Source: Phytoactinopolyspora mesophila
GTDB taxonomy: Bacteria; Actinomycetota; Actinomycetes; Jiangellales; Jiangellaceae
Assembly: GCF_010122465.1 (NCBI RefSeq)
Contig: NZ_WLZY01000003.1
Location: 310,001 to 374,000 of the forward strand
Reading direction: 5' to 3'
DNA: 64,000 bases
Below, piece by piece: positions 10,828 to 29,486 of the stretch. A program made the position numbers and the translations under genes. Below the pieces are notes generated by a model that was not told the DNA's origin, made no database searches, and saw nothing but the letters and a program-made list of their open reading frames with translations. Within the stretch, counting starts at the first letter, position 1, and the number at the start of each line of letters is the position of its first letter.

Positions 10828-11879
10828 GCGCCACCGACCTGGGCATGCCCGGACTGAGCGGTGTGCCCACCACCGACGTCGAACAGACGAAGAAGGATTT
10901 CACCAGCGACCAAGAGGTCCGCTGGTGCCCGGGGTGTGGCGACTACGCAGTCCTGGCGGCGGTGCAGGGCTTCATGCCCAAACTCGGTCTTGCCCGGGAG
11001 AACATCGTCTTCGTCTCCGGCATCGGCTGCTCGTCTCGCTTCCCGTACTACATGAACACGTACGGAATGCACTCGATCCACGGCCGGGCGCCGGCGATCG
11101 CCACCGGCTTGGCGACCTCCCGTCCGGACCTTTCGGTGTGGGTCGTCACCGGCGACGGCGACGCGCTGTCTATCGGCGGCAATCACCTGATCCACGTGCT
11201 GCGCCGCAACGTGAACATGACCATCTTGCTGTTCAACAACCGGATTTACGGGCTCACCAAGGGCCAGTACTCGCCCACGAGTGAGCAAGGCAAGATCACC
11301 AAGTCCACACCCATGGGGTCGCTCGATGCCCCGTTCAACCCGGTGTCGCTGGCGCTAGGCTCCGAAGCGACATTCGTGGCACGCACCATCGACTCCGACC
11401 GCGCACACCTGACCTCTGTGCTGCAGGCGGCCGCCGCCCACCGCGGAACCTCACTGGTCGAGATCTACCAGAACTGCAACATCTTCAACGACGGCGCGTT
11501 CGAAATCCTCAAGAACCGGGACACCCAAGACGAGGTACTGATCCGCCTCGAGCACGGCGAACCGGTCCGCTTCGGCGCCGGCGCCGAGCACGGCATCCGC
11601 CGTAATCCGCATACTGCCGGGCTCGAGGTCTGCGCCGCCGACGACCCCGCCGTCATCGTCCACGACGCCCACGCTCCGGATCCGAGCCGGGCGTTCGCAC
11701 TGTCGCGCCTGGCCGACCCGGGCACGCTCTCACGCACGCCGATCGGCATCTTCCGGCAGGTGGAGCGGCCCACTTACGGCGATCTGATGAACGATCAGGT
11801 CGATCACGCCATCGAATCCCAGGGAACTGGCGACCTCGCGACGCTGATCGCCGGCCGCGACACCTGGACAGTCGAGTAG
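10824..11879 (+). CDS. korB: 2-oxoacid:ferredoxin oxidoreductase, beta subunit (KorB type)
   Basis: 351 residues; the GTG overlaps the korA stop (GTGA). The TPP-binding region is TGDGDALSIGGNH (109-121). Four cysteines placed as in this family can ligate the [4Fe-4S] cluster: WCPGCGDY (Cys35, Cys38), GIGCSS (Cys69) and QNCNIF (Cys218). It binds thiamine diphosphate at the interface with KorA and passes electrons to ferredoxin. The pair forms a two-gene operon ending in palindromic repeat DNA. Confidence 0.94.
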   Translation: MSATDLGMPGLSGVPTTDVEQTKKDFTSDQEVRWCPGCGDYAVLAAVQGFMPKLGLARENIVFVSGIGCSSRFPYYMNTYGMHSIHGRAPAIATGLATSRPDLSVWVVTGDGDALSIGGNHLIHVLRRNVNMTILLFNNRIYGLTKGQYSPTSEQGKITKSTPMGSLDAPFNPVSLALGSEATFVARTIDSDRAHLTSVLQAAAAHRGTSLVEIYQNCNIFNDGAFEILKNRDTQDEVLIRLEHGEPVRFGAGAEHGIRRNPHTAGLEVCAADDPAVIVHDAHAPDPSRAFALSRLADPGTLSRTPIGIFRQVERPTYGDLMNDQVDHAIESQGTGDLATLIAGRDTWTVE

Positions 11880-12053: not shown

Positions 12054-15000
12054 CTACTCGAGCTGGGCTATCAGCCCCTCCCCCATCGCGACCAGCGCGG
12101 CGCGGGCGTCGGTGTCCTCCACACCCTCGGCAACAGCCAGGAACCGCCGCAGCGTCTGCTCGGTCGGGCGAGTCTGGCCACGCTCGCTCAGCCGCTCCGC
12201 GGAGGAAAGGTGAGCCAACATCCGGTCCCGCTGTGATTCGCTGATCCGTCCCTCGTCGAAGTACTCGTTCACCAGCGCCACGGCTGCCCCGTACGACACC
12301 TCGTCCGAGTCGCCGAGTTCGCTGATCTGGACATCCCGGAAGTGGACACGGTCGTTGCCGCCGTGATTCTGCAGGCCGAGATGACCTGAGGATAGATCGC
12401 GCCCGGAGCCCGGTTCGTCCTCGAACTCGTTGACCAGCTCGCCGTTGATCCACACCCTGATCCAGGGGTCGTCCAGCTCGATCTCCATCGTGTTCCACTC
12501 ACCGACGACGGTGGGCCACGCGGTGGCGGGCTGGAAGTTGTAGATGGCGCCGGTCTGGTTGATCGGGTCCCCTTCTGGAGCGCCGAACGTGTCGATCTGC
12601 ACCTCGTAGCCTTCGTTCACGGCCACCCAGGGGTCGCTACCCGGATCAGGGAAGCCGACGAAGATACCTGAGTTGTCATGCTCGTCAAATACCTTGAAAT
12701 CGAGCTTGAGCCGGTAAGACTCGAACTGTTCGTCGTGCCAGAGCAGCCCCATGCCGCCAACGGTCTCCAGGGCGCAGCGGCCGTCGTCCGCGTCTCGCAC
12801 GGTGACGAACGACCCCGGACCGGCCATGTTCCAGCCCTCGATTGATTCGCCGTTCCACAAGGCTCGGTAGCCGTCTTCGACCTGCGGATCCTCACATGGA
12901 TCGGGCTCGGGCGGGTCAGCGTCAAGAGTCCACCCGGAAAACTCTACCCGGCCAGTGGAGTCCGAGTGGGAAGTCGCGAACATGCCGATGTCTTGCGCCT
13001 CCGCCGGATCCGGCGGGGTACCCGAACCGACTGTGGTCCATTGCTCGCCGTCTGTCGAGTAGGAGCCTGTGTAGGTGGTGCCTTCCCGCTCCAGGCGCAG
13101 CCACACCGGATAGGCCGACACGCCGCCGGTGTTCACGTTGCTGTCCAGTTCGCCGTTGCCGGTGGAGTCGAACTGGAAAGCCACGCCGTTCTCCGGTGTC
13201 ACCGACATCATCGCGTAACCGGTCGACGAGTTCGGCGCCGTGATGTCGTTTCTGGCCATGATCCCGGCCTTGGCCCACGGATCGCTGTTCTCCTGGCCGT
13301 CGATCCGCACCGTCGCCGAGAACCGCTCCCCGGCAGCATCTTCCTGGTAGATCGCGCCGTACTCGTCGCAGGAGAGCCACACATCGCACCCGTTGGCGTC
13401 GATCACGAACTCGTCCGGCCCGAACTGGAAGAACTCCGCCTGAGTGTTCGTGAACGTCTGCCACGGTTCCCGTACAGAGCCCTCGCCGACGCTGATCTGC
13501 ACCGCCCGGGACGTCGAGGTCTGCCCTGCGCTGTTCGTCGCCCGGGCACGCAGCACGTACATCCCTTCCGGAACGTCGGACCAGGTGTGGGTGTACGGCT
13601 CTTCGTCGACCGTTGCGATCACCGTCTGCCCGTCGAGGAACTCCACCTCCGCGATCTCGTGTCCGGCGTCGGTGGCATCTGCTGTGAGGACGACGTCGCT
13701 GCCGGGTTCGAAGCTCGCGCCGTCTTCCGGACTGGTCAGTGTCACCCGCGGCCGCGTCTCCGAAGCCACGCCCTGGCCGACAGCATCGAAGAAGTTGAGA
13801 TTGAACAGCCCGTCGGCCTGGTCCGGATCCGAACCGGTGAAGACCAGATACATGGTGAACGTCGCACCCGGATCCGTCACCTCCGTGGACACGTCCGTCC
13901 AGCTCTGCCAGCCGCCCGTGACCGGAACATCCGCCGACCCCAGCAGTTCGCCGTCGGGCGCGTCCTGACGGACCTCGATCGTGCCTCCGGTACCTGCCGA
14001 GGCCACCCGAAACACCAGTTCCTTGATCTGGTACAGGTTCACCGGTTCGTAGGCAACCCAGTCGCCATGCCCGATCCACGCGACGTTGACCGAACCACCT
14101 TCGATATCGGTGGTCGGCTCGATCTGGATGCCTTCGCTGGCGGTGAAGTGCTGCGCCTGCTTGCGCTTCGGCTGAAGCACGACGCCGTCGGAACCGGTCA
14201 GAGCCGGAGCACTCTGGCCCCCGCGGTCGGTGTAGCTCGCTTGCAAGACCCAGAAGATGTTCATACCCGGGTCGTGGCCGCTATCGGTTTGCGTAGCGCT
14301 GATACCTTCGCAGCCGTCGTATTGCGTCATCGGATGCGCGTGCTCGTCATGCCCCAGGGACGACGACACGTCGACATCAGCACAGTCGATGCCATCGCCG
14401 ATGGTGCCGTCCTCCGCGTCCGTCACGTCGACCCGGAACGGGATGTCGTCTCCCCAGTCGAAGAACCCGCCGTCGGGCGGGACATCGAACGAGACGTCTG
14501 GCCTGGTGTTGCCGACCGTGATGGTCACGTTGGCCACACCGGTACGCTCTTCGGCATCGGTGACCGTGAGTTGAGCACTGTACTGGCCGTTCTCGGTGTA
14601 GGTGTGTGTCGGGTTGATCTCGTCCGACGTCGCACCGTCACCGAAGCTCCACGCATAGTCGACGATCTCGTTCTCCGGCGCATCGGGATGGAAAGAGCTC
14701 TCGCCGGTGAACTGCACCTCCAGCGGCGCATGGCCCGACGTCGGCTCGGCGCTCACCCGGGCCACCGGTGAGAGGCCACCCGCGATGTAGTCGATGCGGG
14801 ACAGCGCGGAGTCCGGTGCGCCACCGAAGAACCCGGAACCGTATTCGAGGACGTACAGCGAGCCATCGGGACCGAACTCCATGTCCATCGGGTTGATGAG
14901 CTCGATGTCCGGCACGGTCTCGGTGATGTCGATCAACTGACTGGCACCGTCGAGGTGAAGCTGCTTGATCCAGCGCCGGCCCCACTCGTAGAGCAGTGGG

Positions 15001-17027
15001 ATGCCGTCGTAGTACTCCGGCCACTTCGTGTCGGACTCGAGTTCCGAGTCGAAGACGTAGGCCGGACCGCCCATCGGCGATCCGCTACCGGTACCCAGCT
15101 GCGGGAACTCCGGTGTGAGCGCGTAGTGGTACCAGATCTTCGCCGGTGTCACCGGCGGTAGCTGCTCCAGCCCCGTGTTTCGCGGGGAGCCGTTGACCGG
15201 GCCGCCTTCGCAGTCGAAGGGCTCACCCGATTCACCTGTGGCGAAGTCATAGTCGATGTACGCCACGTTGTCACCGATGCAGTACGGCCAGCCGATGTTC
15301 ACCGGTTCCTCGATGAGGTGCCATGTCACCGTGTTTTGCGGACCACGATCGGGGTGGGGATCGGTGGCGTCCGGGCCGTAGTCGCCGAGATAGACGGCGC
15401 CGTCACGCGGATCGACGGAGAAGCGGAACGGATTGCGGAAACCCATCGCGTAGATCTCGGGACGGGCGAGCTCGGGATCGTAGGTCCCGTCCGGGAAGAG
15501 GTGGTCCCAGTCGCCGGCGGTGAACAGGTTGCCGTCCGGAACGGTGTACGTGCTGCCCTCACCCGGCTCGTCGGCAGCATCGTCCATGGGGGTGATCCGC
15601 AGCAGTTTGCCCCGCAAGTCCGCGGTGTTGCCCGAGGTCCGCTGCGCGTCGAAGGCGGGATTGCGGTGCGGACGCTCGTCGATCGGTGTGTAGGCGTCGG
15701 ATTGGAACGGGTTGGCGTCGTCGCCGGTGGCCAGGAAGAGATTGCCGTCGGCATCGAAGCCGATGTCACCGCCCATGTGGCAGCAGATGCCCCGCGTAGC
15801 CGGTACCTCGATGATGACTTCTTCGGAGTCGAGGTCCAGGTACGAGGCGGGTCCGTCGTCGACGAACTGGAATCGCGACAGATTCGAGTGCGCTTCCCAC
15901 TGCTCGAACAGCTCTTCATCGCCGGGAACGACCTGGTCAGGCGCGGGCCCGGAGGGCACGCCGTCGATCACGGGCGAATAGAACACGTACACCCAGCCGT
16001 TGTTCTCGAAGTCCGGGTCTATCGCGATACCTTGGAGTCCTTCCTCGTCGTGGCTGTAAACCGGTATCTCGGCCACCACAGGCGTCGTGTTTGTCTCGGG
16101 ACTCCACATCCGGACCACACCATCGCGGGAAGTGAGCAGCACTCTGGTATCCGGTAGCACCGCCAACCCCATCGGCTCGCCGACGTTGCTCTCGTCCTGC
16201 GCGAGAGTCACCTTCTCGAAGTTCTTCCATTGGGTCGCGCCGCAGTCGCCGTCGGCCACGCCGGCCGCCCACTGGATACCGCCGAGGATGTGCTGCCCGA
16301 ACTCCGGATCCGCATACACCTCGGACCTGTGGCCGAGCCCGGTGTACCAGGACCGGCCGCCGTCGTACACCTGACACCACGCGATCGGGTGATCCCAGCC
16401 CATTTGCGGCCCCGGATCGACCTGGTCGGCGTAGGATTCCTCGTCCAGACCTGCCAGTACGTGAACGTCGCCGCGTGGGCTCTGGTTGAAGTCGTACCAC
16501 TCGTCCTCGATGGTCCACAGCGGCGCGGCGTGCGCGGTCGACGGGTGCACGTGGTCGTACACCATGACATCGGCGGTTTGAGTGCCCGGCGGATGCGACT
16601 GGAAGTACGCACCTACCAGACCGCCATACCAAGGCCAGTCGTAATGCGTGTCGGACGCGGAGTGAATTCCGGCGTAACCGCCGCCGGCTTGGATGTAGCC
16701 CTCGAAGGCCTCCTGCTGGTCGGGCTCAAGGACGCTGCCGGTGGTGTTGAGCCACACGACGACGTCGTAACGATCGAGATTCTCCTCGGTGAACACCGAG
16801 CTGTCCTCGGTGTGGTCCACCGCGAAGCCGTGCTCGGCGGCCAGCCCCTCGACCGCTGCTACACCTGCCGGGATGGAGTCATGGCGGAAGCCCTCCGTCT
16901 TGGTGAACAGCAAAGCGTGAAATTCTGCGTCGTCGTCATGCGCAACCGACGCCACCGGTGGCAACCCCACAGCCAGCAACGTGGTCGCGCTCATGGTCGC
17001 GAGCATTGGTCGTACTAGTGCGGACAC
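12054..17027 (-). CDS. Giant secreted ThuA / sugar-dehydrogenase / PKD / CBM6 / DUF1080 multidomain protein
   Basis: About 1657 residues with an N-terminal signal peptide ending near VASVAHDDD. In order: a ThuA-like domain (about 35-255; GYAGIHSASDTHYDWPWYGG), a PQQ-type glucose/sorbosone dehydrogenase beta-propeller (about 265-745; GLQGIAIDPDF, GDYGPDA), a PKD domain (about 755-845; YAWSFGDGATSD), a CBM6-like domain (about 950-1100; WIGHGDWVAYEPV), an Ig-like domain (about 1105-1195), a concanavalin-like DUF1349-type domain (about 1205-1385; DPWAKAGIMARND), and a DUF1080/3-keto-glycoside-hydrolase-like domain (about 1400-1560; HDNSGIFVGFPDP), then a helical tail. The GTG at 17027 is chosen because GGAGG precedes it by 5 nt; a TTG at 17039 is the outer limit. 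Likely an extracellular glycan-oxidising or glycan-cleaving protein. Domain borders are approximate. Confidence 0.85.
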   Translation of the reverse strand: MSALVRPMLATMSATTLLAVGLPPVASVAHDDDAEFHALLFTKTEGFRHDSIPAGVAAVEGLAAEHGFAVDHTEDSSVFTEENLDRYDVVVWLNTTGSVLEPDQQEAFEGYIQAGGGYAGIHSASDTHYDWPWYGGLVGAYFQSHPPGTQTADVMVYDHVHPSTAHAAPLWTIEDEWYDFNQSPRGDVHVLAGLDEESYADQVDPGPQMGWDHPIAWCQVYDGGRSWYTGLGHRSEVYADPEFGQHILGGIQWAAGVADGDCGATQWKNFEKVTLAQDESNVGEPMGLAVLPDTRVLLTSRDGVVRMWSPETNTTPVVAEIPVYSHDEEGLQGIAIDPDFENNGWVYVFYSPVIDGVPSGPAPDQVVPGDEELFEQWEAHSNLSRFQFVDDGPASYLDLDSEEVIIEVPATRGICCHMGGDIGFDADGNLFLATGDDANPFQSDAYTPIDERPHRNPAFDAQRTSGNTADLRGKLLRITPMDDAADEPGEGSTYTVPDGNLFTAGDWDHLFPDGTYDPELARPEIYAMGFRNPFRFSVDPRDGAVYLGDYGPDATDPHPDRGPQNTVTWHLIEEPVNIGWPYCIGDNVAYIDYDFATGESGEPFDCEGGPVNGSPRNTGLEQLPPVTPAKIWYHYALTPEFPQLGTGSGSPMGGPAYVFDSELESDTKWPEYYDGIPLLYEWGRRWIKQLHLDGASQLIDITETVPDIELINPMDMEFGPDGSLYVLEYGSGFFGGAPDSALSRIDYIAGGLSPVARVSAEPTSGHAPLEVQFTGESSFHPDAPENEIVDYAWSFGDGATSDEINPTHTYTENGQYSAQLTVTDAEERTGVANVTITVGNTRPDVSFDVPPDGGFFDWGDDIPFRVDVTDAEDGTIGDGIDCADVDVSSSLGHDEHAHPMTQYDGCEGISATQTDSGHDPGMNIFWVLQASYTDRGGQSAPALTGSDGVVLQPKRKQAQHFTASEGIQIEPTTDIEGGSVNVAWIGHGDWVAYEPVNLYQIKELVFRVASAGTGGTIEVRQDAPDGELLGSADVPVTGGWQSWTDVSTEVTDPGATFTMYLVFTGSDPDQADGLFNLNFFDAVGQGVASETRPRVTLTSPEDGASFEPGSDVVLTADATDAGHEIAEVEFLDGQTVIATVDEEPYTHTWSDVPEGMYVLRARATNSAGQTSTSRAVQISVGEGSVREPWQTFTNTQAEFFQFGPDEFVIDANGCDVWLSCDEYGAIYQEDAAGERFSATVRIDGQENSDPWAKAGIMARNDITAPNSSTGYAMMSVTPENGVAFQFDSTGNGELDSNVNTGGVSAYPVWLRLEREGTTYTGSYSTDGEQWTTVGSGTPPDPAEAQDIGMFATSHSDSTGRVEFSGWTLDADPPEPDPCEDPQVEDGYRALWNGESIEGWNMAGPGSFVTVRDADDGRCALETVGGMGLLWHDEQFESYRLKLDFKVFDEHDNSGIFVGFPDPGSDPWVAVNEGYEVQIDTFGAPEGDPINQTGAIYNFQPATAWPTVVGEWNTMEIELDDPWIRVWINGELVNEFEDEPGSGRDLSSGHLGLQNHGGNDRVHFRDVQISELGDSDEVSYGAAVALVNEYFDEGRISESQRDRMLAHLSSAERLSERGQTRPTEQTLRRFLAVAEGVEDTDARAALVAMGEGLIAQLE

Positions 17028-17131
17028 GGACACCTCCAACTAGCACAGAGCGAGTAGGTCTCCGCCGCACGGCGTGCCGGCACCGTCCGGACGCGGGATC
17101 CCGAAGCTGATCGCCACGTGACCCGTGGCCG

Positions 17132-17510: not shown

Positions 17511-18674
17511 GTGAGCGACTCCGTCGGTATCTGGTTCATCGGCGCACGAGGATCGGTCGCGACAACCACCACAGTGGGTTCACTCGCCATCGCCTCCGGG
17601 CTCGGCCCACGCACCGGCCTGGTGTCCGAACTCCCGCCCGTCGCACAGGCACAGCTGCCCAGTCTCGGCCGGCTCGTGATCGGTGGCCACGAAGTGGCGG
17701 GTGGCTGCCTGACCAAGCGCGCCGAGACACTCGCCGCCGCCGGTGTCTTACCTTCCGATCTTGTGACCGCCCTCGCCGACGAGCTGGCCAGTGTTGACGA
17801 ACGTATCCGTCCAGGTGTCCATCATCACGACACCGACCAGCGCTCTACTGCCCAGCGCATTGAGGCCGACTTGCGCCGATTCCGCGAAGAGCATGACCTC
17901 GGGCGGGTAATCGTCGTCGATGTGTCCAGCACTGAGCCGCCGACGGCCAGCACGCCTGCGCTCGACGAGCTCGCTCGACTCGAGGCGGCGTTGGACGCTG
18001 GTGAAGCACCGCTGCCGATCAGCTCGCTCTATGCCTATGCCGCGTTCCGCGCCGGTTGCCCGTTCGTCGCGTTCACGCCGAGCCCAGGCCCCCGCCTTGC
18101 AGCCCTGGCCGAGCTGGCGGCCGAGACCGCCCTGCCGTGGGCCGGCTCCGACGGAAAGACCGGTGAGACCCTGGTCAAGACCGCCCTGGCACCTTTGTTC
18201 GCCATGCGTGCGTTGAAAGTCCGGTCGTGGTCGTCACTCAACCTCCTCGGCGGAGGCGACGGGCAGACGCTGGCCGATCCAGCCAACGCGGTCAGCAAGA
18301 CCGTGACCAAGGCACAGGGCTTGGAGGCCATCCTCGGTCACCAGGTAGACGGTCCGCTGCACATCGACTACGTCGAAGACCTCGGCGACTGGAAGACGGC
18401 GTGGGACATGGTCTCCTTCGAGGGCTTCCTCGGCACCCGGATGTCGCTGCAGTTCACCTGGTCCGGCTGTGATTCCGCCCTCGCCGCGCCGTTGATTCTC
18501 GACCTTGTCCGTCTCATGTCGCGAGCTCATGAGGTCGGCGAGCGCGGACCGATTCCCGCCCTCGGTTTCTTCTTCAAGGACCCCGCGGCCAGCGACGTTC
18601 ACGTACTCGGCGAGCAATGGAACGCCCTGGTGGACTGGTGTGCCCGCCTCGGCGCGGCCGGTAAGACTCGATGA
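17511..18674 (+). CDS. Myo-inositol-1-phosphate synthase-like protein, first gene of the Ebo-type operon
   Basis: 387 residues from the GTG at 17511, with AGGAGG at 17501-17506; the longer frame upstream has no coding character. The N-terminal Rossmann glycine loop is WFIGARGSVATTTTVG (5-20), as in NAD-dependent inositol-phosphate synthases. Further family-like segments are WAGSDGKTGETLVKTALAPL (about 212-231), NLLGGGDGQTLADP and DYVEDLGDWKTAWD (about 285-298). The stop overlaps the next ATG (ATGA), and the following genes are also close-packed. Known members cyclise glucose-6-phosphate to inositol-1-phosphate. Here the product may instead feed the Ebo pathway, where other organisms use an EboD sugar-phosphate cyclase. 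That role is inferred. Confidence 0.82.
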   Translation: MSDSVGIWFIGARGSVATTTTVGSLAIASGLGPRTGLVSELPPVAQAQLPSLGRLVIGGHEVAGGCLTKRAETLAAAGVLPSDLVTALADELASVDERIRPGVHHHDTDQRSTAQRIEADLRRFREEHDLGRVIVVDVSSTEPPTASTPALDELARLEAALDAGEAPLPISSLYAYAAFRAGCPFVAFTPSPGPRLAALAELAAETALPWAGSDGKTGETLVKTALAPLFAMRALKVRSWSSLNLLGGGDGQTLADPANAVSKTVTKAQGLEAILGHQVDGPLHIDYVEDLGDWKTAWDMVSFEGFLGTRMSLQFTWSGCDSALAAPLILDLVRLMSRAHEVGERGPIPALGFFFKDPAASDVHVLGEQWNALVDWCARLGAAGKTR

Positions 18675-19531
18675 GGCCACGCGACCTGGCCGAGTTGGTA
18701 CGGCTGCCTGCCGCGCTGACGGCGCCGGGCGATTCCCTGGCGGGCGCCGCCGCGGCCGGATGGCCGCACGGGCACCGCACATGGACACTGCCCGTTTCGT
18801 CAACATTGCTCTATTGGGCCGGCATGGCGCTGAACGACTACGCCGACCGAGACCTCGACAAACACGAACGCCCGGAACGGCCGATCCCATCCGGTCGCGT
18901 CACGCCGGGTGAGGCGCTGGCCCTCGCGGCCGGGCTCACGGGCGCCGGCCTGTGCGTAGCCGCCGCCGGAGGTGGCCGTCGCGCACTTCGAGTAGCCGTG
19001 CCGCTCGCGGCCACCGTATGGACCTACGACCTCCTCGCCAAACAAACAGCGGCCGGGCCCGCCTGCATGGCCGCGGCCCGCGGATTGGACGTGCTGCTGG
19101 GAGCCGGCGGCCAGCTGCGTGCGGCGGCCGTTCCAAGCCTGGCCGTCACAGTGCACACCGCGGCCGTGACCAGCCTCAGCCGAGGCGAGGTGCACGGAAG
19201 TTCGGAGAACGCCGGGCGGATCGCGCTGGCTGGTACCGCCGCGGCCGCTGCCACCGCCGCTGTCCCGCATCGCCCGGCCGGACGGGTATCCGCGCTGGCC
19301 GGCGCGGCACTCGCAGCCGGCTATGCAGCGGTTGTCGGGCGAAGTCAACTCGAAGCGTCCCGCAGCCCGGATGCCGGCACCGTGCGCCGGGCCACCGGTA
19401 CCGGCGTGCGTGGCGTCATCCTGTTGCAGTCCGCGCTGGCCGCGCGCTCCGGTGCACTGGGAGTCGCCGCCGGCCTGCTCAGCGCGGGTCCCATCGCCCG
19501 GATGGCATCCAAGGTGGTGTCGCCCACATGA
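18671..19531 (+). CDS. eboC: UbiA-family prenyltransferase, EboC-like
   Basis: 286 residues, mostly hydrophobic with 7-9 membrane segments. The first Asp-rich motif is NDYADRDLDKHERPERPIPSG (about 56-76), which binds the prenyl diphosphate through Mg2+. A second site region YDLLAKQ (about 118-124) is poorer in Asp than in canonical UbiA enzymes. The ATG overlaps the previous stop, and its own stop overlaps the next ATG (19528). It should transfer a prenyl group onto a polar acceptor in the membrane; the acceptor, possibly a cyclitol made by neighbours, is unknown. Confidence 0.82.
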   Translation: MRPRDLAELVRLPAALTAPGDSLAGAAAAGWPHGHRTWTLPVSSTLLYWAGMALNDYADRDLDKHERPERPIPSGRVTPGEALALAAGLTGAGLCVAAAGGGRRALRVAVPLAATVWTYDLLAKQTAAGPACMAAARGLDVLLGAGGQLRAAAVPSLAVTVHTAAVTSLSRGEVHGSSENAGRIALAGTAAAAATAAVPHRPAGRVSALAGAALAAGYAAVVGRSQLEASRSPDAGTVRRATGTGVRGVILLQSALAARSGALGVAAGLLSAGPIARMASKVVSPT

Positions 19532-20439
19532 GCACGCGCCAGGCCGGCGAACTCCGGTTCGGATACGGCACCAACGGCTTCGGCAGCCATCGCCTCGACG
19601 ACGCGCTCGCCGTTATCGCCGGCCTCGGGTACGACGGCGTCGCCCTGACCGTCGACCACCCGCATCTGGATCCCTATGACGACGACCTCCCCGCCCGCAC
19701 CGCCTCCGTCGGCCGGCGCCTCGAAGAGCTGGGACTGGCCGTGGTGATCGAGACTGGCGCACGCTACGTGATGGATCCCTGGAACAAGCACGAGCCAACG
19801 CTCGTCTCAGCCACCGGCCGTGAGCGACGGGTGGACCTGCTGTGCCGGGCGGTGCGCATCGGCGCGGACCTCGGAGCCGAGGCGGTTTCGTTCTGGTCCG
19901 GAACCGCGCCGAGCGGCACGGACACCGAAGAGGCTTGGCATCGCTTGCTGTCGGGTGTGGAACCAGTGCTCGAAGAGGCAGCGCGGCTCGACGTGACATG
20001 TGCGTTCGAGCCGGAACCGGGTATGTTCATCGACACCGTCGCAGGCGTCCTCGAACTACGGCGCCGGCTGGGTCATCCAGAGCGGTTGCGTGTCACCATC
20101 GACGTCGGTCATTGCGTATGCAACGAGACTCGCACCGTCGCCGAATGTATCCATGCCGCCGGACCGCTGCTGAGTAACGTCCAGATCGACGACATGCTGC
20201 CCGGCGTTCATGAACACCTCGAGCTAGGCCACGGCGACGTCGACTTCCCCGCGACGCTCGGTGCGCTGCTCGATGTCGGTTACGCCGGCCTTGCCTCGTT
20301 GGAGCTCCCCAGGCACGGCCACGCCGCGCCAGAGGTTGCTGCGAGATCGCTCGAGGTCCTGCGCGCAGCGTTGTCCGAGGCCCAGCGGGACCGAACACCG
20401 GACGACCGGACCGCGGAGTCTTCAAGAACACCGGCGTAA
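19528..20439 (+). CDS. Sugar phosphate isomerase/epimerase-like TIM barrel (xylose-isomerase-like)
   Basis: 303 residues from the ATG at 19528 (ATGA overlap); the longer frame lies within eboC. The fold is AP-endonuclease-2/xylose-isomerase-like. Metal-ligand motifs are FEPEPGMFIDT (about 168-178), TIDVGHC (about 190-196, Asp and His) and HLELGHGDVDF (about 230-240). The EPEPGxxI(D/E)T motif recurs in the EboE homologue encoded at 22004, so the two are probably distant paralogues in the same pathway. The C-terminal 20 residues are hydrophilic and variable. Substrate unknown. Confidence 0.8.
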   Translation: MSTRQAGELRFGYGTNGFGSHRLDDALAVIAGLGYDGVALTVDHPHLDPYDDDLPARTASVGRRLEELGLAVVIETGARYVMDPWNKHEPTLVSATGRERRVDLLCRAVRIGADLGAEAVSFWSGTAPSGTDTEEAWHRLLSGVEPVLEEAARLDVTCAFEPEPGMFIDTVAGVLELRRRLGHPERLRVTIDVGHCVCNETRTVAECIHAAGPLLSNVQIDDMLPGVHEHLELGHGDVDFPATLGALLDVGYAGLASLELPRHGHAAPEVAARSLEVLRAALSEAQRDRTPDDRTAESSRTPA

Positions 20440-20455
20440 GCAAGGAGGCAGGCGC

Positions 20456-21127
20456 GTGAGCACTGTGTCGGATGAACTCACTTCGTACCTCGACGGCGAC
20501 GCCCGGCAACGCCTCGATGACCTTCTCCGCGAGATAGGCGCCGAGCCGTCGAAGACTGCCATCCGATTCCCGGCGGCGGCCCGGTTGATCGCGCGGGGAC
20601 CAGCCGATCCCGAGGATCCTGACGGCATACTCGAACCACGGATCGAGGACGTGGTCCGCATTGCCCTGCTCACCGCAGCGGCCGAAGCGTGGGCAGACCG
20701 GCCGGAAGTGCTCATTCGCGAGATGAGTGCCCTGTACCGCTTCGGCGATGCCGACGAGAAGCGGGCGGTGTTGCGGGCGCTCACGCCACTCGATCCCGGA
20801 CCTGACCTGCTGCCTATCGTCGAGGACGCGCTGCGGACCAACGACAGCCGGCTGGTGGCCGCGGCTTTGGGTAGCTACGGGGCCCGCCACCTCGGCACCG
20901 ACGCCTGGCGGCAAGGCGTCCTCAAGTGCCTATTCGTCGGCGTGCCGCTCGACACGGTCGCCGAACTCCACACTCGGATGGACACCGATCTTGCCCGGAT
21001 GGTGGCGGACTACTGCCTCGAACGGATCGCCGCAGGGCGCGAAGTGCCGCCTGATGCGTGGAAAGTGCTGGACGAGTTCCCCGACATGATCGACGGCCGG
21101 TTCCCTGCGGCAGCCCGGGAGGCATGA
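20456..21127 (+). CDS. eboA: EboA-like helical protein
   Basis: 223 residues from the GTG at 20456, preceded by AAGGAGG at 20442-20448. The sequence is almost all alpha-helical with HEAT-like repeats, including SALYRFGDADEKRAVLRAL (about 87-105) and DALRTNDSRLVAAALGSYGA (about 124-143). There are no catalytic motifs, signal peptide or membrane segments. Identification rests on resemblance to EboA and on conserved neighbours (EboC, EboB, EboE, EboF). The biochemical role of EboA is not established. Its stop overlaps the eboB start region. Confidence 0.75.
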   Translation: MSTVSDELTSYLDGDARQRLDDLLREIGAEPSKTAIRFPAAARLIARGPADPEDPDGILEPRIEDVVRIALLTAAAEAWADRPEVLIREMSALYRFGDADEKRAVLRALTPLDPGPDLLPIVEDALRTNDSRLVAAALGSYGARHLGTDAWRQGVLKCLFVGVPLDTVAELHTRMDTDLARMVADYCLERIAAGREVPPDAWKVLDEFPDMIDGRFPAAAREA

Positions 21128-21999
21128 TGCGCATCTACGACCCCCACATCCATATGACGTCGCGCACCACCGACGACTACGAGGCGATGTATGCGGCCGG
21201 CGTGCGTGCGCTGACTGAGCCGGCGTTCTGGCTGGGCCAGCCCCGCACCAACGTCGGTTCGTTCACTGACTACTTCGACAGCCTGCTGGGGTGGGAACGC
21301 TTCCGTGCCGCCCAGTTCGGGATCCGGCACCACTGCACCATCGCGCTGAACCCCAAGGAGGCCAACGATCCTCATTGTGCCGAGGTCCTCGACGTCCTGC
21401 CCCGCTACCTGGCGAAGGACGGCGTCGTCGCCGTCGGCGAGGTCGGCTTCGACTCAATGACGGCAGAAGAGGAGAAGGTGTTCGTCAGCCAGCTGGACAT
21501 GGCGGCTGAGCACGATCTTCCGGTCCTAGTACACACGCCCCATCGGGACAAAGCCGCTGGGACCAGGCGCACCCTTGAACTGGTCGCGGCGTCGGGCCTG
21601 CCGCCCGAGAGGGTGCTCGTCGACCATCTCAACGAGACGACGGTTGCCATGGTCGCCGACTCCGGTTGCTGGATGGGGTTCTCGATCTATCCAGACACCA
21701 AGATGGACGAGCACCGGATGGTGGCGATCCTGGCCGAACGCGGATTCGACCGGATGATCGTGAACTCCGCGGCGGACTGGGGTCGCAGCGATCCGCTCAA
21801 GACGGCCAAGACCGGGCAGGCGATGCTGGAATACGGCTTCACCGTCGACGACGTCGACCGAGTCCTGTGGCAGAACCCCGTCGAGTTCTACGGCCAGAGC
21901 GGCCGGCTCCTTCTCGACGAGATAGAGGCCGAGCCCGCCGCGACATTCGAAGGCAACTCGGTCCTGCGCGGACAACGTCCAACGGGCGGAGAGGAGTGA
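21127..21999 (+). CDS. eboB: TatD-family metal-dependent hydrolase, EboB-like
   Basis: 290 residues. The N-terminal metal motif DPHIHMTSR (4-12) supplies the HxH pair; VGEVGFDSMT (about 110-119), PVLVHTPHRDK (about 135-145) and VLVDHLNE (about 168-175) supply the further Glu and His ligands, and NSAADWG (near 222) the final Asp. This is the amidohydrolase layout of TatD enzymes. Two adjacent ATGs (21124, 21127) follow GGGAGG; the second has the better spacing. Classical TatD proteins are nucleases, but in this operon it more likely hydrolyses a small metabolite. Confidence 0.8.
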   Translation: MRIYDPHIHMTSRTTDDYEAMYAAGVRALTEPAFWLGQPRTNVGSFTDYFDSLLGWERFRAAQFGIRHHCTIALNPKEANDPHCAEVLDVLPRYLAKDGVVAVGEVGFDSMTAEEEKVFVSQLDMAAEHDLPVLVHTPHRDKAAGTRRTLELVAASGLPPERVLVDHLNETTVAMVADSGCWMGFSIYPDTKMDEHRMVAILAERGFDRMIVNSAADWGRSDPLKTAKTGQAMLEYGFTVDDVDRVLWQNPVEFYGQSGRLLLDEIEAEPAATFEGNSVLRGQRPTGGEE

Positions 22000-22003
22000 T
22001 CCG

Positions 22004-23173
22004 ATGCGCTTTCGCCACCGTGACGGCACCATTGTCCACCTGGCGTACTGCACCAACGTCCACCCCACCGACGACTTCAACACGCTGATCGATCAGGTCC
22101 GCACGTTCGGCGGCGGGGTCCGGTCCCGGCTGGGCGTTGACCGGCTCGGGCTAGGCCTCTGGCTGCCCGCGCCGGTTGTGTCGTCGCTGGTCGACCATCC
22201 CGGGGATGTCGGTCGGCTGAGAAGTACGCTGGCCGGGCACGGGCTGGAGGTCGTCACCCTCAATGCGTTCCCCTATGCGGGATTCCACGCGCCCGAGGTC
22301 AAGAAGGCCGTCTACCACCCCGATTGGTTCGACCCCCGGCGCCTCGAGTACACCCTCGACTGCGCGACGGTGTTGGCTCAGCTGATGCCGGATGACGCCG
22401 CGCGCGGCAGCATTTCGACCCTGCCCCTCGGTTGGCGCAAACCCTGGTACGCCGATAGGCAGCAGCGAGCTCGTGAGCATCTCGACCAGCTCGCCGAAGG
22501 GTTGGCCAAGATCGAAGCCGCGACCGGCCGCAACATTCGTGTAGGGCTGGAACCCGAACCAGGCTGTGTCATCGAAACGACGAGTGACGCCGTCGAACGG
22601 CTCGAAGGAGTCGACCAGGACCGCATCGGCGTCTGTTTGGACGCCTGCCACCTGGCCGTGGAGTTCGAGGAACCCGCCCAGGCTGTGCGGCGGTTGTCCG
22701 ACGCCGGGCTGCCGATCGTGAAGACCCAGGCGTCGGCTGCCTTGCATGTGCGAGAACCGGATGACCCCACGACCCGTGACGCTTTGCAGAACTACGTGGA
22801 GGATCGGTTCCTGCATCAGGTACGCGAGTGCGGCGCCGGCCGAATCATCAGTCGCGACGATCTACCGGAGGCCATGGCGGGACGCCGGGCCTTGCCCGGG
22901 CGTGCGCCCTGGCGGGTGCACTATCACGTGCCGGTGCACCAATCGCCGACGCCACCGCTGGCGTCCACGAGTGACCAGCTCCAGGACACCCTAGGTGCGC
23001 TGTTCGGTGGGAATACCGCTGCCACCAGCCATATCGAGGTCGAGACGTACACGTGGTCGGTGTTGCCGCAAGACCGGCGGCCGGCAGGCGACGAAGGTCT
23101 CACCGACGGATTGGCCGCCGAGGTGCGGTGGGTCGCCGACCGGCTGAAGGATCTCGGAATGGAGGCACTGTGA
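22004..23173 (+). CDS. eboE: EboE-like metabolite traffic protein (xylose-isomerase-like TIM barrel)
   Basis: 389 residues. The N-terminus HLAYCTNVHP (12-21) and the long TIM barrel with VGLEPEPGCVIETT (about 184-197), CLDACHLAVEFEE (about 211-223) and KTQASAALHV (about 238-247) match the EboE family. The C-terminal region TSHIEVETYTWSVLP (about 344-358) is also typical. Only 4 bp separate it from eboB, with GGAG upstream of the ATG. Its stop overlaps the next gene's GTG. Function is thought to be sugar or cyclitol isomerisation linked to export of a metabolite; the substrate is unknown. Confidence 0.85.
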   Translation: MRFRHRDGTIVHLAYCTNVHPTDDFNTLIDQVRTFGGGVRSRLGVDRLGLGLWLPAPVVSSLVDHPGDVGRLRSTLAGHGLEVVTLNAFPYAGFHAPEVKKAVYHPDWFDPRRLEYTLDCATVLAQLMPDDAARGSISTLPLGWRKPWYADRQQRAREHLDQLAEGLAKIEAATGRNIRVGLEPEPGCVIETTSDAVERLEGVDQDRIGVCLDACHLAVEFEEPAQAVRRLSDAGLPIVKTQASAALHVREPDDPTTRDALQNYVEDRFLHQVRECGAGRIISRDDLPEAMAGRRALPGRAPWRVHYHVPVHQSPTPPLASTSDQLQDTLGALFGGNTAATSHIEVETYTWSVLPQDRRPAGDEGLTDGLAAEVRWVADRLKDLGMEAL

Positions 23174-24543
23174 ACAAGCTGCTGGTGCTCGACGTCGTCG
23201 GGCTGACGCCGAGGCTGCTGGCCCACGCACCATCGCTGCGAGCCGTCGCCGACCGAGGATGGCAAGCCGAACTCGGGACCGTGTTGCCGGCGGTGACCTG
23301 TTCCGCGCAGTCGACCTTTCTCACCGGGCAGCTACCACGCGAACACGGGATCGTCGGCAACGGCTGGTACTTCCGGGATCTCGGCGAGATCTATCTTTGG
23401 CGCCAGCACAACCGGCTGGTTCAACGCGAGAAGGTGTGGGAGACCGCACGCCGCAGCAACCCCGGGTTCACCACTGCCAATGTGTGCTGGTGGTACGCGA
23501 TGGGCGCCAGCACCGATTGGACGGTCACGCCCCGCCCGGTCTACCACGCCGATGGCCGGAAGTCTCCGGACTGCTACACCCGCCCGCCGGAGCTGCATGA
23601 CGAACTCACGGCACGGCTGGGCCCTTTCCCGCTGTTCAACTACTGGGGCCCCACGGCGTCGCTGCGCTCCAGTGAGTGGATCGTTGCCGCCACCCGCCGG
23701 TTGCTTCCACAGGCCGACCTGACTCTCGCATACATTCCCCACCTCGACTACGACCTGCAGCGTTACGGCCCCGACAGCCCGGAGGCGGTAACCGCGGTGC
23801 GAGACGTCGATCGAGTCGTGGCTCCGTTGCTGAACGACGCCCTGCAGCGCGACACCCGCGTCGTCGTGCTCAGCGAGTACGGCATCACGGCGGCCACTCA
23901 GCAGGTACACATCAACCGGGTGTTCCGGGACGCCGGGCTGCTCGAGGTCTACACCCAGCACGGCATGGAGTATCTGGATCCGTGGACCTCGCGGGCGTTC
24001 GCCGTCGCCGATCACCAGACTGCTCATGTGTATGTGTCAGATCCGGCGGACGTCGACCATGTAGCCAAACTCTGTGGGGACCTGCCAGGGGTCGATCTCG
24101 TGCTCGATCGGGAAGCACAGGCCGAGCACGGGCTGAACCACGAACGTGCCGGCGAACTGGTGCTGGTCGCCGAGCCTGGCGCCTGGTTCACGTACTACTA
24201 CTGGCTCGACGACGCACGCGCGCCGGACTTCGCCCGGGGTGTGGACATTCACCGCAAGCCGGGTTATGACCCCGCGGAGCTCTTCCTCAACCCCGCCGAT
24301 CCACGGGTGAAGCTGCGGGCCGGGATGGCGCTGGCCCGCAAGAAGGTGGGGCTCCGGTATGCGATGAACGTCATCCCGACGGACGGACGTTGGGTGAAGG
24401 GCACCCATGGCCGGCTGCCCGACGATCCCGCGGACGGCCCGGTGCTGCTGTGCAGCGATGCTTCGACCGCACGGGATCGGCTCGCTGCCACCGACGTCCG
24501 CGACCTCCTGCTCGAACTCTGTGGTCTTCCCGAGGCTCGGTGA
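23170..24543 (+). CDS. eboF: Alkaline phosphatase superfamily (nucleotide pyrophosphatase/phosphodiesterase-like), EboF-like
   Basis: 457 residues from the GTG at 23170 (GTGA overlap). Metal and nucleophile regions of the NPP family are visible: LLVLDVVGL (4-12, first Asp), PAVTCSAQSTFLTGQLPREH (about 39-58, Thr/Ser nucleophile area), YIPHLDYDLQRYGPDS (about 190-205), VLSEYGI (about 235-241) and a His-containing VADHQTAHVYV (about 277-287). No signal peptide, so it acts in the cytoplasm. It should cleave a phosphate monoester or diester in the Ebo pathway. It is the last gene of the operon; repeat DNA begins 28 bp after its stop. Confidence 0.82.
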   Translation: MNKLLVLDVVGLTPRLLAHAPSLRAVADRGWQAELGTVLPAVTCSAQSTFLTGQLPREHGIVGNGWYFRDLGEIYLWRQHNRLVQREKVWETARRSNPGFTTANVCWWYAMGASTDWTVTPRPVYHADGRKSPDCYTRPPELHDELTARLGPFPLFNYWGPTASLRSSEWIVAATRRLLPQADLTLAYIPHLDYDLQRYGPDSPEAVTAVRDVDRVVAPLLNDALQRDTRVVVLSEYGITAATQQVHINRVFRDAGLLEVYTQHGMEYLDPWTSRAFAVADHQTAHVYVSDPADVDHVAKLCGDLPGVDLVLDREAQAEHGLNHERAGELVLVAEPGAWFTYYYWLDDARAPDFARGVDIHRKPGYDPAELFLNPADPRVKLRAGMALARKKVGLRYAMNVIPTDGRWVKGTHGRLPDDPADGPVLLCSDASTARDRLAATDVRDLLLELCGLPEAR

Positions 24544-25781: not shown

Positions 25782-28700
25782 TCAGGGGGACGGCGCGCCG
25801 TAACCGCCACCACCCGGCGTCTCGATCACCAAGGTGTCGCCCGGTCCGACCTCGACCGAATCATTACCGGCCAGCTCCACGACCGAGCCATCGGCTCGTT
25901 CGACCCAGTTGCGGCCGAGCATGCCGGGTCCGCCACCGGCCATGCCGTAAGGCGGCACGCGGCGATGTCCAGACAAGGTGCTCACGGTCATCGCCTCCCG
26001 AAACCGGAGCCGGCGCACCGCACCGTCCCCGCCCCTCCACCGGCCTTGCCCGCCGCTGCCGCGCCGGATGGCGAAGCTGTCCACCATGACCGGGAATCGC
26101 CACTCGAGCACCTCCGGGTCGGTGAGCCGGGAATTGGTCATATGGGTCTGCACCGCGGCAACGCCGTCGAAACCGTCGCCCGCGCCGGAACCCGAGCCCA
26201 CCGTTTCGTAGTACTGATACTCGGCGTTGCCGAAGGTGGTGTTGTTCATGGTGCCGGACCCTTCGGCCTGCACGCCCAGAGCGGCGTACAACGCCGCGGT
26301 CACTGCTTGCGACGTCTCGACGTTCCCGGCGACGACGGCCGCTGGGTACTCCGGCGACAGCATGGTGCGGGGCGGCACGACGATCCGCAACGGTCTCAGG
26401 CAGCCGTCGTTCAGCGGGATGTCGTCGGCGACGAGGGTACGGAACACGTACAGCACGGCGGCCGTCGCCACCGACGTCGGCGCGTTGAAATTGTTGTCCA
26501 ACTGGTCGGACGTGCCGGTGAAGTCGATCGTCGCCGACCGGTTCTGCCGGTCTACGGTGATCGACACGTCGATAGTCGAGCCCTGGTCCATTTCGTACCT
26601 GTACGCGCCGTCGTCGAGTGCGTCGATGACGCGGCGCACGGCCTCCTCGGCGTTGTCCTGGACATGACGCATGTACGCCTGCACCACGTCGAGGCCGAAG
26701 TGGTCGATCATCCGATTGACCTCGGCCACGCCCTTCTCGTTGGCCGCGATCTGCGCTCGTAGGTCAGCCAGGTTCGTGGCCGGGTTCCGCGACGGGTAGG
26801 GGGCCTGCGTCAGCAGGCGGACGGTCTCCTCCTCCATGAACCGTCCGTCCCGCACGAGCAGCCAATTGTCGAACAGCACACCTTCCTCGTGGATGTCGCG
26901 GCTGAATGCCGGCATGGAGCCTGGTGTGAGGCCGCCGATCTCGGCATGGTGCCCGCGGGATGCGACATAGAACAGCACGTCGCGGGAGGCTTCGCCGTCA
27001 CCGCTCCCGCCTCCCGCCCCGACAACTTCCCGCGGCACCGGAGCGAACACCGGCGTCACCACGGTGATATCCGGCAGGTGCGTGCCCCCGTGATACGGAT
27101 CATTGACGGCGTAGACGTCACCGGGCCGGAGCTCACCGGCCATGGCCCGCCGTTCGATCACCTCTTTGACGCTGGACCCCATCGAGCCAAGATGCACCGG
27201 CATGTGCGGCGCGTTCGCGATCAGGTTGCCGTCGGGGTCGAACAACGCGCAAGAGAAGTCGAGCCGCTCCTTGATATTGACTGACTGGGCGGTCGATTCC
27301 AGTCGAGCACCCATCTGCTCAGCGATGGACATGAACAGGTTGTTGAAGATCTCGAGCATCACCGGGTCGACGTCGGTGCTCACGCCGGCGATGTCCGCCC
27401 GGTCACGCACCCGCTCGATCTGCACGTGACCGTGCTCGGTGATGGCCCCTCGCCAACCGTCGTCGATCACCGTCGTCGCATTCGCCTCGGCGATGATCGC
27501 TGGCCCGTTCACGTGATCACCGGATGTCAGCTGGTCCCGCTGAAAGAGCGGCGCATCCACCCGTCCCCCGCCCCGGTAGAGCCGTACGGAACTGGCGCCG
27601 GGCGACTGGGGGGTGACGCGGAGTGAGCCCTGAGCAGGGACGAGGTCCCTTGCTCCAACCCCCAGCTCCACCTGAGGCGTCAGCCCGACCGCCTCTACCG
27701 ACACTGCTTCGACGATGAGGGGCCGCTCCATCAGGAACGCGTACATCCGGCGATAGGTTTCCTCGAACTCGGCGACCATGGCATCTGGTTCGGCAAGCTC
27801 TACCTGAACGGCAGTGTCCGTACCGTCGTAGCGCAGATGGGCTCGTGCGGTGACGCGGATCCGATCGCCGGGAACGTCCTCGGCAGTCAGTTCGTCCCGC
27901 GCGGATTCTTCTAGTGCGCTGACGACGTCGCGCAGTCGATCCATCGCCCCATCAGCAAGCTCTGACTCGATCGATTGTTCGCGCATCGCGGTGGTGTCGG
28001 CCAGGCCGATGCCCAGAGCCGACAGCACGCCGGCCATCGGCGGGACCAGCACGGACCGGATACCGAGCGAATCGGCCACCGCGCAGGCGTGCTGTCCGCC
28101 GGCGCCGCCGAACGTCGTCAGCACATATTCGGTGACGTCGTGCCCCTTCTGCACGGAGATTTTCTTGATCGCGTTCGCCATGTTCGCTACCGCAATGGCC
28201 AGGTATCCATCCGCGATCTGTTCCGGCGTGCGCTGTTCACCGGTCTGCTCGGAGATCTCATGTGCCAGCTGGGTGAACTTCTCTCGTACGATGCCGGCAT
28301 CCAGCGGCTCGTCGCCGCCGGGGCCGAACACCGCCGGGAATTGATCCGGCTGGATACGGCCGAGCATCACGTTGGCGTCCGTGACCGTCAGCGGGCCGCC
28401 GTTTCGATATGCGGCCGGCCCTGGATGGGCACCGGCTGAGTCCGGTCCCACCCGCAGCCTTGACCCGTCGAAATGCAGGATCGAACCGCCGCCTGCTGCC
28501 ACGGTGTTGATGTCCAGCATGGGCGCGCGCAGGCGGACCCCGGCTACCTGGGTGTTGAATGTGCGCTCGTACTCCCCGGCATAGTGCGAGACGTCGGTGG
28601 ATGTACCGCCCATGTCGAATCCGATCACCTTGTCGAAGCCAGCCAGCCGCGACATGCGCGCCATCCCGACGATTCCACCGGCCGGTCCCGACAGGATGGC

Positions 28701-29486
28701 GTCCTTGCCGCGGAAGTGTCCGGCTTCGGCGAGGCCGCCGTTGGACTGCATGAACATCAACCGGACGCCCGGCAGCTCGTCGGCTATCTGCCGGACATAG
28801 CGGCCCAGGATCGGCGACAGGTAAGCGTCGACGACGGCGGTGTCACCGCGCGGAACCAGTTTCATCAGTGGGCTGGCCTCACTGGACAGGGATACCTGGG
28901 GGAAGCCGATGCGTTGCGCCAGTTCGCCGACGAGGTGTTCGTGCGCCGGGTAGAGGTGACTGTGCATGCAAACGATCGCCACCGCGCGATACCCGTCGTC
29001 GTAGGCGGCACGCAGTTCGGTCTCCAACTCGTCGAGCCTCGGCGCGCGAAGCACGTCGCCCTGCGCGGTGACGCGTTCGTCGACCTCCAGGACGCGCTCA
29101 TGCAGGAGTTCCGGAAGGACGATTTGCCGGTCGAAGATCCGCGGGCGACTCTGATAGCCGATCCGCAGCGCGTCGGCGAATCCACGGGTGATCACCAGGA
29201 CCGTCCGGTCCCCGGTGCGTTCGAGCAATGCGTTGGTCGCGACCGTCGTGCCCATCCGGACCGCCTCGATCCGGTCCGCCAGCGAGCGCCGGTCAGGAAC
29301 GGCACCACCAGACCTGTTCTCGTCCCTGTCGAGGAGCTCACGGATTCCGGCGACGGCGGCGTCACGGTACTGGCCCGGGTTCTCGGAGAGGAGTTTGTGT
29401 GTCACCAGCGAGCCGTCGGGACGGCACGCCACGATATCGGTGAACGTGCCGCCGCGGTCGATCCAGAATTGCCAGCGTCCAGACAT
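25782..29486 (-). CDS. Fused hydantoinase A/B, 5-oxoprolinase-like (ATP-hydrolysing)
   Basis: 1234 residues, close to the length of fused 5-oxoprolinases. HyuA part: [18 protein letters not shown] (8-25, ATPase-type phosphate loop), a linker helix, then [15 protein letters not shown] (about 293-307). HyuB part from about residue 710: [20 protein letters not shown], then [14 protein letters not shown] (about 805-818) and the C-terminal [11 protein letters not shown]. Known members cleave 5-oxoproline to glutamate with ATP, or open hydantoins; the two cannot be separated by eye. No signal peptide, so cytoplasmic. It stands alone, with repeats on both sides. An adjacent PxpABC system is not present. 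Confidence 0.9.

Follow-up and report, generated by a model that had tools for sequence, protein, structure and literature searches.

An Ebo-type operon of Phytoactinopolyspora mesophila with an inositol-phosphate-synthase-family gene in the place of EboD

The 64,000-nucleotide stretch of Phytoactinopolyspora mesophila DNA analyzed here (contig NZ_WLZY01000003.1, positions 310,001 to 374,000; hereafter the window) carries an operon of ebo genes, a widespread set with a membrane-related role, in which a gene of the inositol-phosphate synthase family (hereafter INO) stands in the place of the sugar-phosphate cyclase gene eboD. The replacement of EboD by INO is well supported: in actinomycetes the operon is conserved and no EboD was found, and in Planctomycetota the two genes exclude each other. 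We lean towards seeing the operon as an INO-type form of the Ebo system, in which INO and a TIM-barrel enzyme (hereafter TIM) replace EboD as the source of a cyclitol and whose product is a prenylated cyclitol lipid, our best guess for the Ebo product in general.

The operon is located on the forward strand at positions 17511-24543 of the window, on contig 3 of a 6.5-Mb genome, and consists of seven packed genes in the order INO-EboC-TIM-EboA-EboB-EboE-EboF. INO (17511..18674), which starts with GTG, is followed by the gene of an EboC-like UbiA prenyltransferase belonging to the NCBI 'SCO3242 family' (18671..19531) and by that of the xylose-isomerase-like TIM barrel accompanying INO (19528..20439). 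Then come EboA, a predicted all-helical, scaffold-like protein (20456..21127), EboB, a TatD-like metal-dependent hydrolase whose start is at 21124 or 21127 (21124..21999), the TIM-barrel protein EboE (22004..23173) and EboF, which has an alkaline-phosphatase-superfamily fold with an altered metal site (23170..24543). Four of the six junctions (INO/EboC, EboC/TIM, EboA/EboB and EboE/EboF) are 4-base overlaps, while TIM and EboA are separated by 16 bases and EboB and EboE by 4 bases. An earlier note on this DNA, made from the sequence alone, had described a tight seven-gene Ebo-type operon with start/stop overlaps and without a visible EboD; place, strand and overlaps all agree with this description, and EboD was not found elsewhere in the genome either. 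The sole match to the 3-dehydroquinate synthase (DHQS) family (PF01761) in this genome is AroB, since its neighbours translate as shikimate kinase (AroK) and chorismate synthase (AroC).

The absence of EboD extends to the other actinomycetes. In 72 further operon genomes, the DHQS-family genes found were of the AroB type, apart from a few others, and did not adjoin the operon (ten EboE-positive genomes, four with a lone EboE-like gene and six with only an N-terminal EboE-like piece, lie outside this check). Eight operon genomes (G070, G082, G106, G128, G152, G175, G244 and G277) harbor extra DHQS-family genes with strong scores; all of them lie away from the operon, and no listed EboD-profile score of theirs exceeds 176 bits. 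This value is also the best one obtained with that profile in 296 actinomycete genomes, at most six first-look candidates having been scored in most of them. For comparison, reference EboD proteins score 330-447 bits against each other, a local EboD profile gives 426-710 bits in 13 EboD loci, and the profile applied to actinomycetes gives 354-510 bits for EboD in Planctomycetota. Furthermore, a scan of genome contigs covered at least 80 loci, and EboD was sought genome-wide for 20 of them, none of which had a match above 185 bits.

The earlier note had suggested profile searches of actinobacterial genomes to see whether this cyclase always replaces EboD. In our survey of the 296 genomes, EboE matches were found in 83, in 77 of them above the cut-off. 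The INO clade (more than 300 bits to the window protein) is present in 72 of the 73 genomes that have an ebo operon, whereas the 219 genomes in which no EboE exceeds the cut-off all lack it; no EboD was found in any of the 296. The 73rd operon genome (G024) has a 228-bit INO relative on another contig. The full order INO-EboC-TIM-EboA-EboB-EboE-EboF is found in 65 of the 94 fetched EboE loci, a conservation far beyond chance. One of these 65 (L052) contains only an INO fragment, its genome encoding the complete INO on a different contig, and 21 have an additional weak TIM match downstream (20-56 bits). The remaining 29 loci include four lone EboE-like genes (L072, L101, L104 and L113), 14 loci (L115-L128) where the EboE-like pieces are N-terminal or broken, second copies lacking INO (L040 and L049) and a copy lacking both INO and TIM (L084). 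TIM is lacking in three loci (L039, L042 and L059) and EboC in one (L109), L065 has only INO, EboA, EboB and EboE, and three loci (L056, L089 and L090) are cut by contig ends, with INO on a different contig in each of these genomes. The 13 loci L115-L127 come from a single actinomycete family; their second gene matches approximately the first 242 positions of EboE, and no other ebo genes are present.

INO itself is recognized in profile searches by PF07994 (149.6 bits) and PF01658 (109.9 bits), both above their cut-offs, but reaches only 38.8 bits with TIGR03450, the equivalog model of mycothiol-type housekeeping INO1 (cut-off 638). The genome has two inositol-phosphate-synthase-family genes, the operon INO and a gene on contig 4 that we take, from its translation, as the mycothiol-type housekeeping INO1. 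The possibility raised earlier, that the first gene is a housekeeping inositol-1-phosphate synthase lying beside ebo genes by coincidence, can therefore be rejected for actinomycetes, on the grounds of this separate INO1, of the low TIGR03450 score and of the conserved operon order. A viral origin was likewise discarded, no INO relative having been found in a search of viral contigs. In the actinomycete group f31, eight genomes (G081, G091, G121, G130, G148, G166, G174 and G192) gave no match to the window INO and four (G101, G183, G217 and G265) gave only the ebo-linked match, which suggests that the family may have lost or strongly altered its housekeeping INO1.

The nearest entry of the PDB is 1u1i, a myo-inositol-1-phosphate synthase (MIPS) that we take to be that of Archaeoglobus fulgidus (228 bits; 1gr0 gives only 38 bits). 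Nine INO positions aligned to active-site Asp, Lys and Asn residues of 1u1i, with roles that we assume from MIPS enzymes, are kept in 156 or 157 of 157 INO sequences, and the residues altered in the mutant entries 3qvw, 3qvx and 3qw2 show up in the INO alignment. By its sequence and active-site residues, INO is thus a member of the MIPS family, predicted to convert glucose 6-phosphate to inositol phosphate. In addition, the INO clade takes in the MIPS of Archaeoglobi. These ordinary residues and this archaeal kinship would also suit another explanation, in which INO merely adds to the myo-inositol that goes into phosphatidylinositol or mycothiol and lies in the operon only incidentally, the Ebo product containing no cyclitol. 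We consider this unlikely, because a separate INO1 is present in the same genome, because INO leads most actinomycete operons and because INO and EboD exclude each other in two phyla, the partner having changed several times.

The exclusion is also seen in Planctomycetota. Among 199 genomes, EboE is found above the cut-off in 128, EboD in 43 and the INO clade in 110. The 128 genomes with EboE divide into 37 with EboD only, 78 with INO only, two with both and 11 with neither (Fisher 6e-20, kinship ignored), and both cyclases occur in only two of all 199 genomes (p 3e-15, kinship ignored). These two are G421 and G468, and the INO of the latter is partial and contains a stop; four other genomes have EboD without EboE. 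Together with the actinomycete survey, these data bear out the proposal of the earlier note that an inositol-phosphate synthase replaces EboD and that the two exclude each other. EboD is present in seven of the 40 Planctomycetota EboE loci that were fetched. In this phylum, EboE (128 of the 199 genomes) is often a lone gene, far from the other ebo genes.

A tree of 79 EboE sequences requires at least six changes of cyclase partner, four of which are forced by well supported branches. It includes the window sequence and 78 of 138 others, 40 of the 128 EboE-positive Planctomycetota being represented, picked from the top scores; L143, from a Gemmatimonadetes metagenome-assembled genome (MAG), was left off, its EboE being in two pieces. 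That EboD is repeatedly supplanted by an unrelated cyclitol-forming enzyme argues strongly, if indirectly, for a cyclitol core in the Ebo product.

EboD-type operons are found on annotated plasmids of Azospirillum, Deinococcus, Aureibacter, Mycetohabitans and Salipiger. Among 47 plasmid records in which EboE is nearly complete (80% of its length or more), 15 have EboD, 29 have INO (28 of the 31 actinomycete ones and Gemmatirosa) and three, from Streptomyces, have neither nearby; the 40 INO plasmid records listed, out of 45 in all, do not include any EboD record. Gemmatimonadota likewise have INO-type loci with EboE (L132 and L143). The EboE and EboF of Gemmatirosa give higher scores with those of the EboD-type Azospirillum operon than with those of the window, which points to a separate swap. 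Haloarchaea (Natronococcus, Halobaculum, Halocatena, Halorubrum and Halorussus) carry a reduced locus without EboE and EboA, in which EboB, two TIM genes, EboC, INO and EboF stand together; in Halomarina (L139), only INO is present. Some Planctomycetota, Deltaproteobacteria and one myxobacterial MAG have incomplete sets made up of INO, TIM and EboC.

Several of these plasmids deserve a separate mention. Large plasmids of Streptomyces and Embleya commonly carry INO-type ebo genes (L133 and 28 plasmid matches). On a linear Streptomyces plasmid (L245, 9995-11173), EboE is found alone within a type II polyketide cluster, and two other Streptomyces plasmids (L246 and L247) have EboA, EboB, EboE and EboF, INO, EboC and TIM not being found within 10 kb on either side.

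The enzyme that accompanies INO, TIM, belongs to PF01261 (130 bits) and matches sugar isomerases and epimerases; its residues E161, D192, H195, D222, H228, H230 and E259 are kept in 109-110 of 110 sequences. In 71 INO loci from outside actinomycetes and Archaeoglobi, many of which were found through INO itself, TIM lies within 4.5 kb in 27 and EboC within 6 kb in 15. All 15 INO loci with EboC also have TIM, whereas none of 13 EboD loci does; INO and TIM therefore look like a module that is exchangeable with EboD, and it is apparently this pair that is swapped. No locus among these 71 and 13 has both cyclases. Many of the TIM matches near INO outside actinomycetes are only 107-190 bits, so that their identity as the same enzyme is not certain.

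INO-clade genes are also found in clusters unrelated to Ebo, on plasmids of Roseomonas (L131, 7974-17149) and Hymenobacter (L142, 7572-16273). These clusters encode a Gfo/Idh/MocA oxidoreductase, a YcaO-like protein, a TIM isomerase (213 bits between the Roseomonas and window proteins) and a PIG-L deacetylase, with a glycosyltransferase in addition in Roseomonas, and look like a putative undescribed inositol-based pathway. That TIM follows INO rather than Ebo, even into these YcaO/PIG-L clusters, would fit a reading in which INO does not make myo-inositol phosphate but some other product, such as a different inositol isomer or a cyclitol phosphate with a five-membered ring, and TIM belongs to that difference. 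The PDB entry 6k96, named as a five-membered-cyclitol-phosphate synthase, is indeed a weak relative of INO (47 bits). However, this match is far weaker than that to the A. fulgidus MIPS and the compared active-site positions are all standard, so that such a product seems possible but rather unlikely.

EboE is assigned by the equivalog model NF035939 (429 bits, cut-off 250) and EboA by the domain model NF035938 (160 bits, cut-off 50); with NF035937, a narrower model of the EboA family, the score is 68 bits for a cut-off of 320. The structural model of EboA is confident and all-helical (predicted local distance difference test score, pLDDT, 96.2), with no PDB fold match found at E<=0.001, and is compatible with a scaffold role. 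EboB has the TatD domain PF01026 and gives 334-389 bits with the EboB of the EboD-type operons of Aureibacter and Azospirillum. The EboC-like protein is recognized by NF045897 ('SCO3242 family prenyltransferase', 368.5 bits, cut-off 260) and remains below the cut-off of the EboC equivalog NF035940 (142.9 bits, cut-off 250), as do the EboC of the EboD-type operons of Azospirillum and Mycetohabitans (89 and 110 bits). Its best model after these two Ebo-type ones is geranylgeranylglycerol-phosphate geranylgeranyltransferase, and a comparison with PDB sequences gave three weak matches.

EboF is related to PF01663 (223 bits) and gives 441-484 bits with the EboF of the same Aureibacter and Azospirillum operons. 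Its structural model (pLDDT 89.7) has a fold like that of nucleotide pyrophosphatase/phosphodiesterases (NPP), with template modeling scores to Xac NPP of 0.60-0.63 (query, TMq) and 0.70-0.74 (target, TMt). In Xac NPP numbering, with ligand roles and residue numbers that we assume here, T90 (104 of 105 sequences) and D210 (105 of 105) are kept, but D54 is replaced by V (101), H214 by Q (103), D257 by E (102) and H258 by Y (105). Four of the six compared phosphodiesterase ligand positions are therefore altered, in EboD-type and INO-type loci alike, while D281, H282, H286 and D367 (window numbering) are invariant. The predicted fold thus fits the earlier label 'EboF-like phosphatase', but the label itself is not borne out, since the altered metal site makes a plain phosphatase role doubtful.

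From these assignments, we infer a possible course for the pathway. INO would form inositol phosphate from glucose 6-phosphate, TIM would isomerize, epimerize or dehydrate the INO-derived cyclitol, and the membrane-bound EboC would add a prenyl chain to it. EboB, EboE and EboF may finish or handle the product, EboF not as an ordinary phosphatase, and EboA may serve as a helical scaffold. The resulting prenylated cyclitol lipid would pass a metabolite outward at the membrane, a function that could here be tied to secreted keto-sugar enzymes.

Several observations weigh against this scheme. The altered site of EboF argues against a simple dephosphorylation step. In Planctomycetota, 30 of the 110 INO genomes lack EboE, the association between EboE and INO is weak (p 0.007, kinship ignored) and INO is near EboE in none of the 40 fetched EboE loci, so that the link there is one of genome content and not of neighbourhood; these three points also favor an incidental supply of inositol. 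Among actinomycetes, two genomes without EboE (G080 and G268) have INO relatives of 213 and 154 bits. When kinship is taken into account, a mean of 3.7 of 4 independent pairs on the EboE tree show the two cyclases changing in opposite directions, and no pair shows them changing in the same direction, but the sign test (p 0.125) falls short of significance because there are only four such pairs. EboD has been proposed to make a C7 cyclitol (PMC5133447), whereas INO would give a C6 one; the products may therefore differ. Moreover, the EboC homologue Ubi-297 accepted quinoline acids for farnesylation in vitro, but neither phenols nor catechols, and the available account of this enzyme mentions no cyclitol (PMC9235831).

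The genes that surround the operon may bear on what its product serves. Upstream, on the reverse strand, a divergent gene (12054..17039) encodes a very large, secreted-type protein with ThuA, glucose/sorbosone dehydrogenase (GSDH), PKD, CBM6, DUF1349 and 3-keto-disaccharide hydrolase domains, which could be a functional partner. Relatives of ThuA, GSDH or the keto-hydrolase are found in the flanks of 45 of 76 actinomycete operons (6 of 11 families) and in none of 18 control loci, which were actinomycete loci not matched by family. This count was made from domain seeds, because clustering of simple open reading frames (ORFs) mixed in wrong-frame ORFs and unrelated TIM and oxidoreductase genes. 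Relatives of a TAT-type (twin-arginine translocation) TIM protein are near 39 of the 76 operons, and three of 20 INO loci that also have EboB or EboC match the GSDH seed. A sugar dehydrogenase dependent on pyrroloquinoline quinone (PQQ) in Natronococcus, a ThuA protein in Halocatena and a PQQ-dependent dehydrogenase in Salipiger are also annotated nearby. These data suggest a link between Ebo and extracytoplasmic sugar oxidation in some groups.

Such neighbours would suit a reading in which the Ebo product is not an export carrier but a redox cofactor or quinone-like prenylated ring serving secreted oxidoreductases, as would the ferritin-like proteins encoded beside some EboD-type loci. The latter genes, each a hypothetical one with an annotated ferritin-like one, are found in L136 (1043-4103), L137 (2051-5069) and L248 (10888-14169), from Bacteroidota, Burkholderiales and a cyanobacterium; PF12902 was tested in L136. 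On the other side, 31 of the 76 actinomycete operons have no ThuA, GSDH or keto-hydrolase relative in their fetched flanks, and a search with these seeds gave no match in 40 Planctomycetota EboE loci or in five EboD-type plasmid loci. In addition, ebo mutants of Nostoc keep the scytonemin monomer in the cytoplasm, unlike the scyE mutant, which points to transport (PMC6282210, as far as its available text goes). We therefore regard a redox cofactor as quite unlikely. A broader synthesis, in which bacteria and archaea share a single ancient Ebo pathway to a prenylated, cyclitol-derived membrane cofactor, with EboD and INO plus TIM freely interchanged, and in which this product serves extracytoplasmic oxidation of sugars or other metabolites rather than simple export, seems improbable as well.

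Elsewhere in the window, a two-gene 2-oxoacid:ferredoxin-type oxidoreductase (PF01855, PF01558 and PF02775) is encoded at 8899-11879. Downstream of the operon and on the opposite strand, a gene at 25782-29486 encodes a fused hydantoinase A/B (oxoprolinase-type) protein of 1234 amino acids.

The preferred reading, that INO and TIM replace EboD in the supply of a cyclitol, narrows the Ebo chemistry to look for, and the swap recurs in several microbial groups. It offers an explanation for the ebo genes without EboD in many Planctomycetota, and the reduced form extends the Ebo system to haloarchaea. In the open-licence PMC literature, we found no paper that joins ebo with an inositol-phosphate synthase and none that identifies the Ebo product; the word 'inositol' does not occur in the available main text of PMC5133447 and PMC6282210, nor in that of PMC9235831. 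The first of these introduced the definition of eboA-F, suggested a cyclitol as the product of EboD and a prenylating role for EboC, reported that eboD is missing in two of three Planctomycetes and described, in Actinobacteria, an EboA fused to a xylose-isomerase-like part. The last showed that EboC homologues farnesylate quinoline acids and compared loci of Saccharomonospora. In Streptomyces coelicolor, SCO3242, a putative transferase, and SCO3243, a myo-inositol phosphate synthase, are both listed in the CDA antibiotic cluster in the text available of PMC3610822, and through this pair Ebo becomes testable in that species.

Four known systems can be compared with the window operon. The A. fulgidus MIPS (1u1i) is the closest solved relative of INO and shares the compared active-site positions, but Archaeoglobi differ from the operon in that none of their eight loci has a match to EboB, EboC or TIM near INO. 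The SCO3242/SCO3243 pair of S. coelicolor resembles the EboC/INO pair of the window, a likeness that rests on the listing and on the NCBI family name; however, both are listed as genes of the CDA cluster and not of an Ebo operon (PMC3610822). The ebo cluster of Nostoc punctiforme shares EboA, EboB, EboC, EboE and EboF with the window, but has an EboD homologue nearby in the opposite direction. These five genes are needed there for the scytonemin monomer to reach the periplasm, a cyclitol lipid carrier has been proposed, and this cyanobacterium is the only source of functional knowledge in the available text (PMC6282210). Finally, the classic ebo operon, as far as it is described in the text at hand, has EboA, EboB, an EboC-like protein, EboE and EboF in a tight operon like that of the window (PMC5133447). 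It encodes the EboD sugar-phosphate cyclase where the window operon has INO and an additional TIM barrel; since EboD is missing, the window operon is a variant and not a classic ebo operon.

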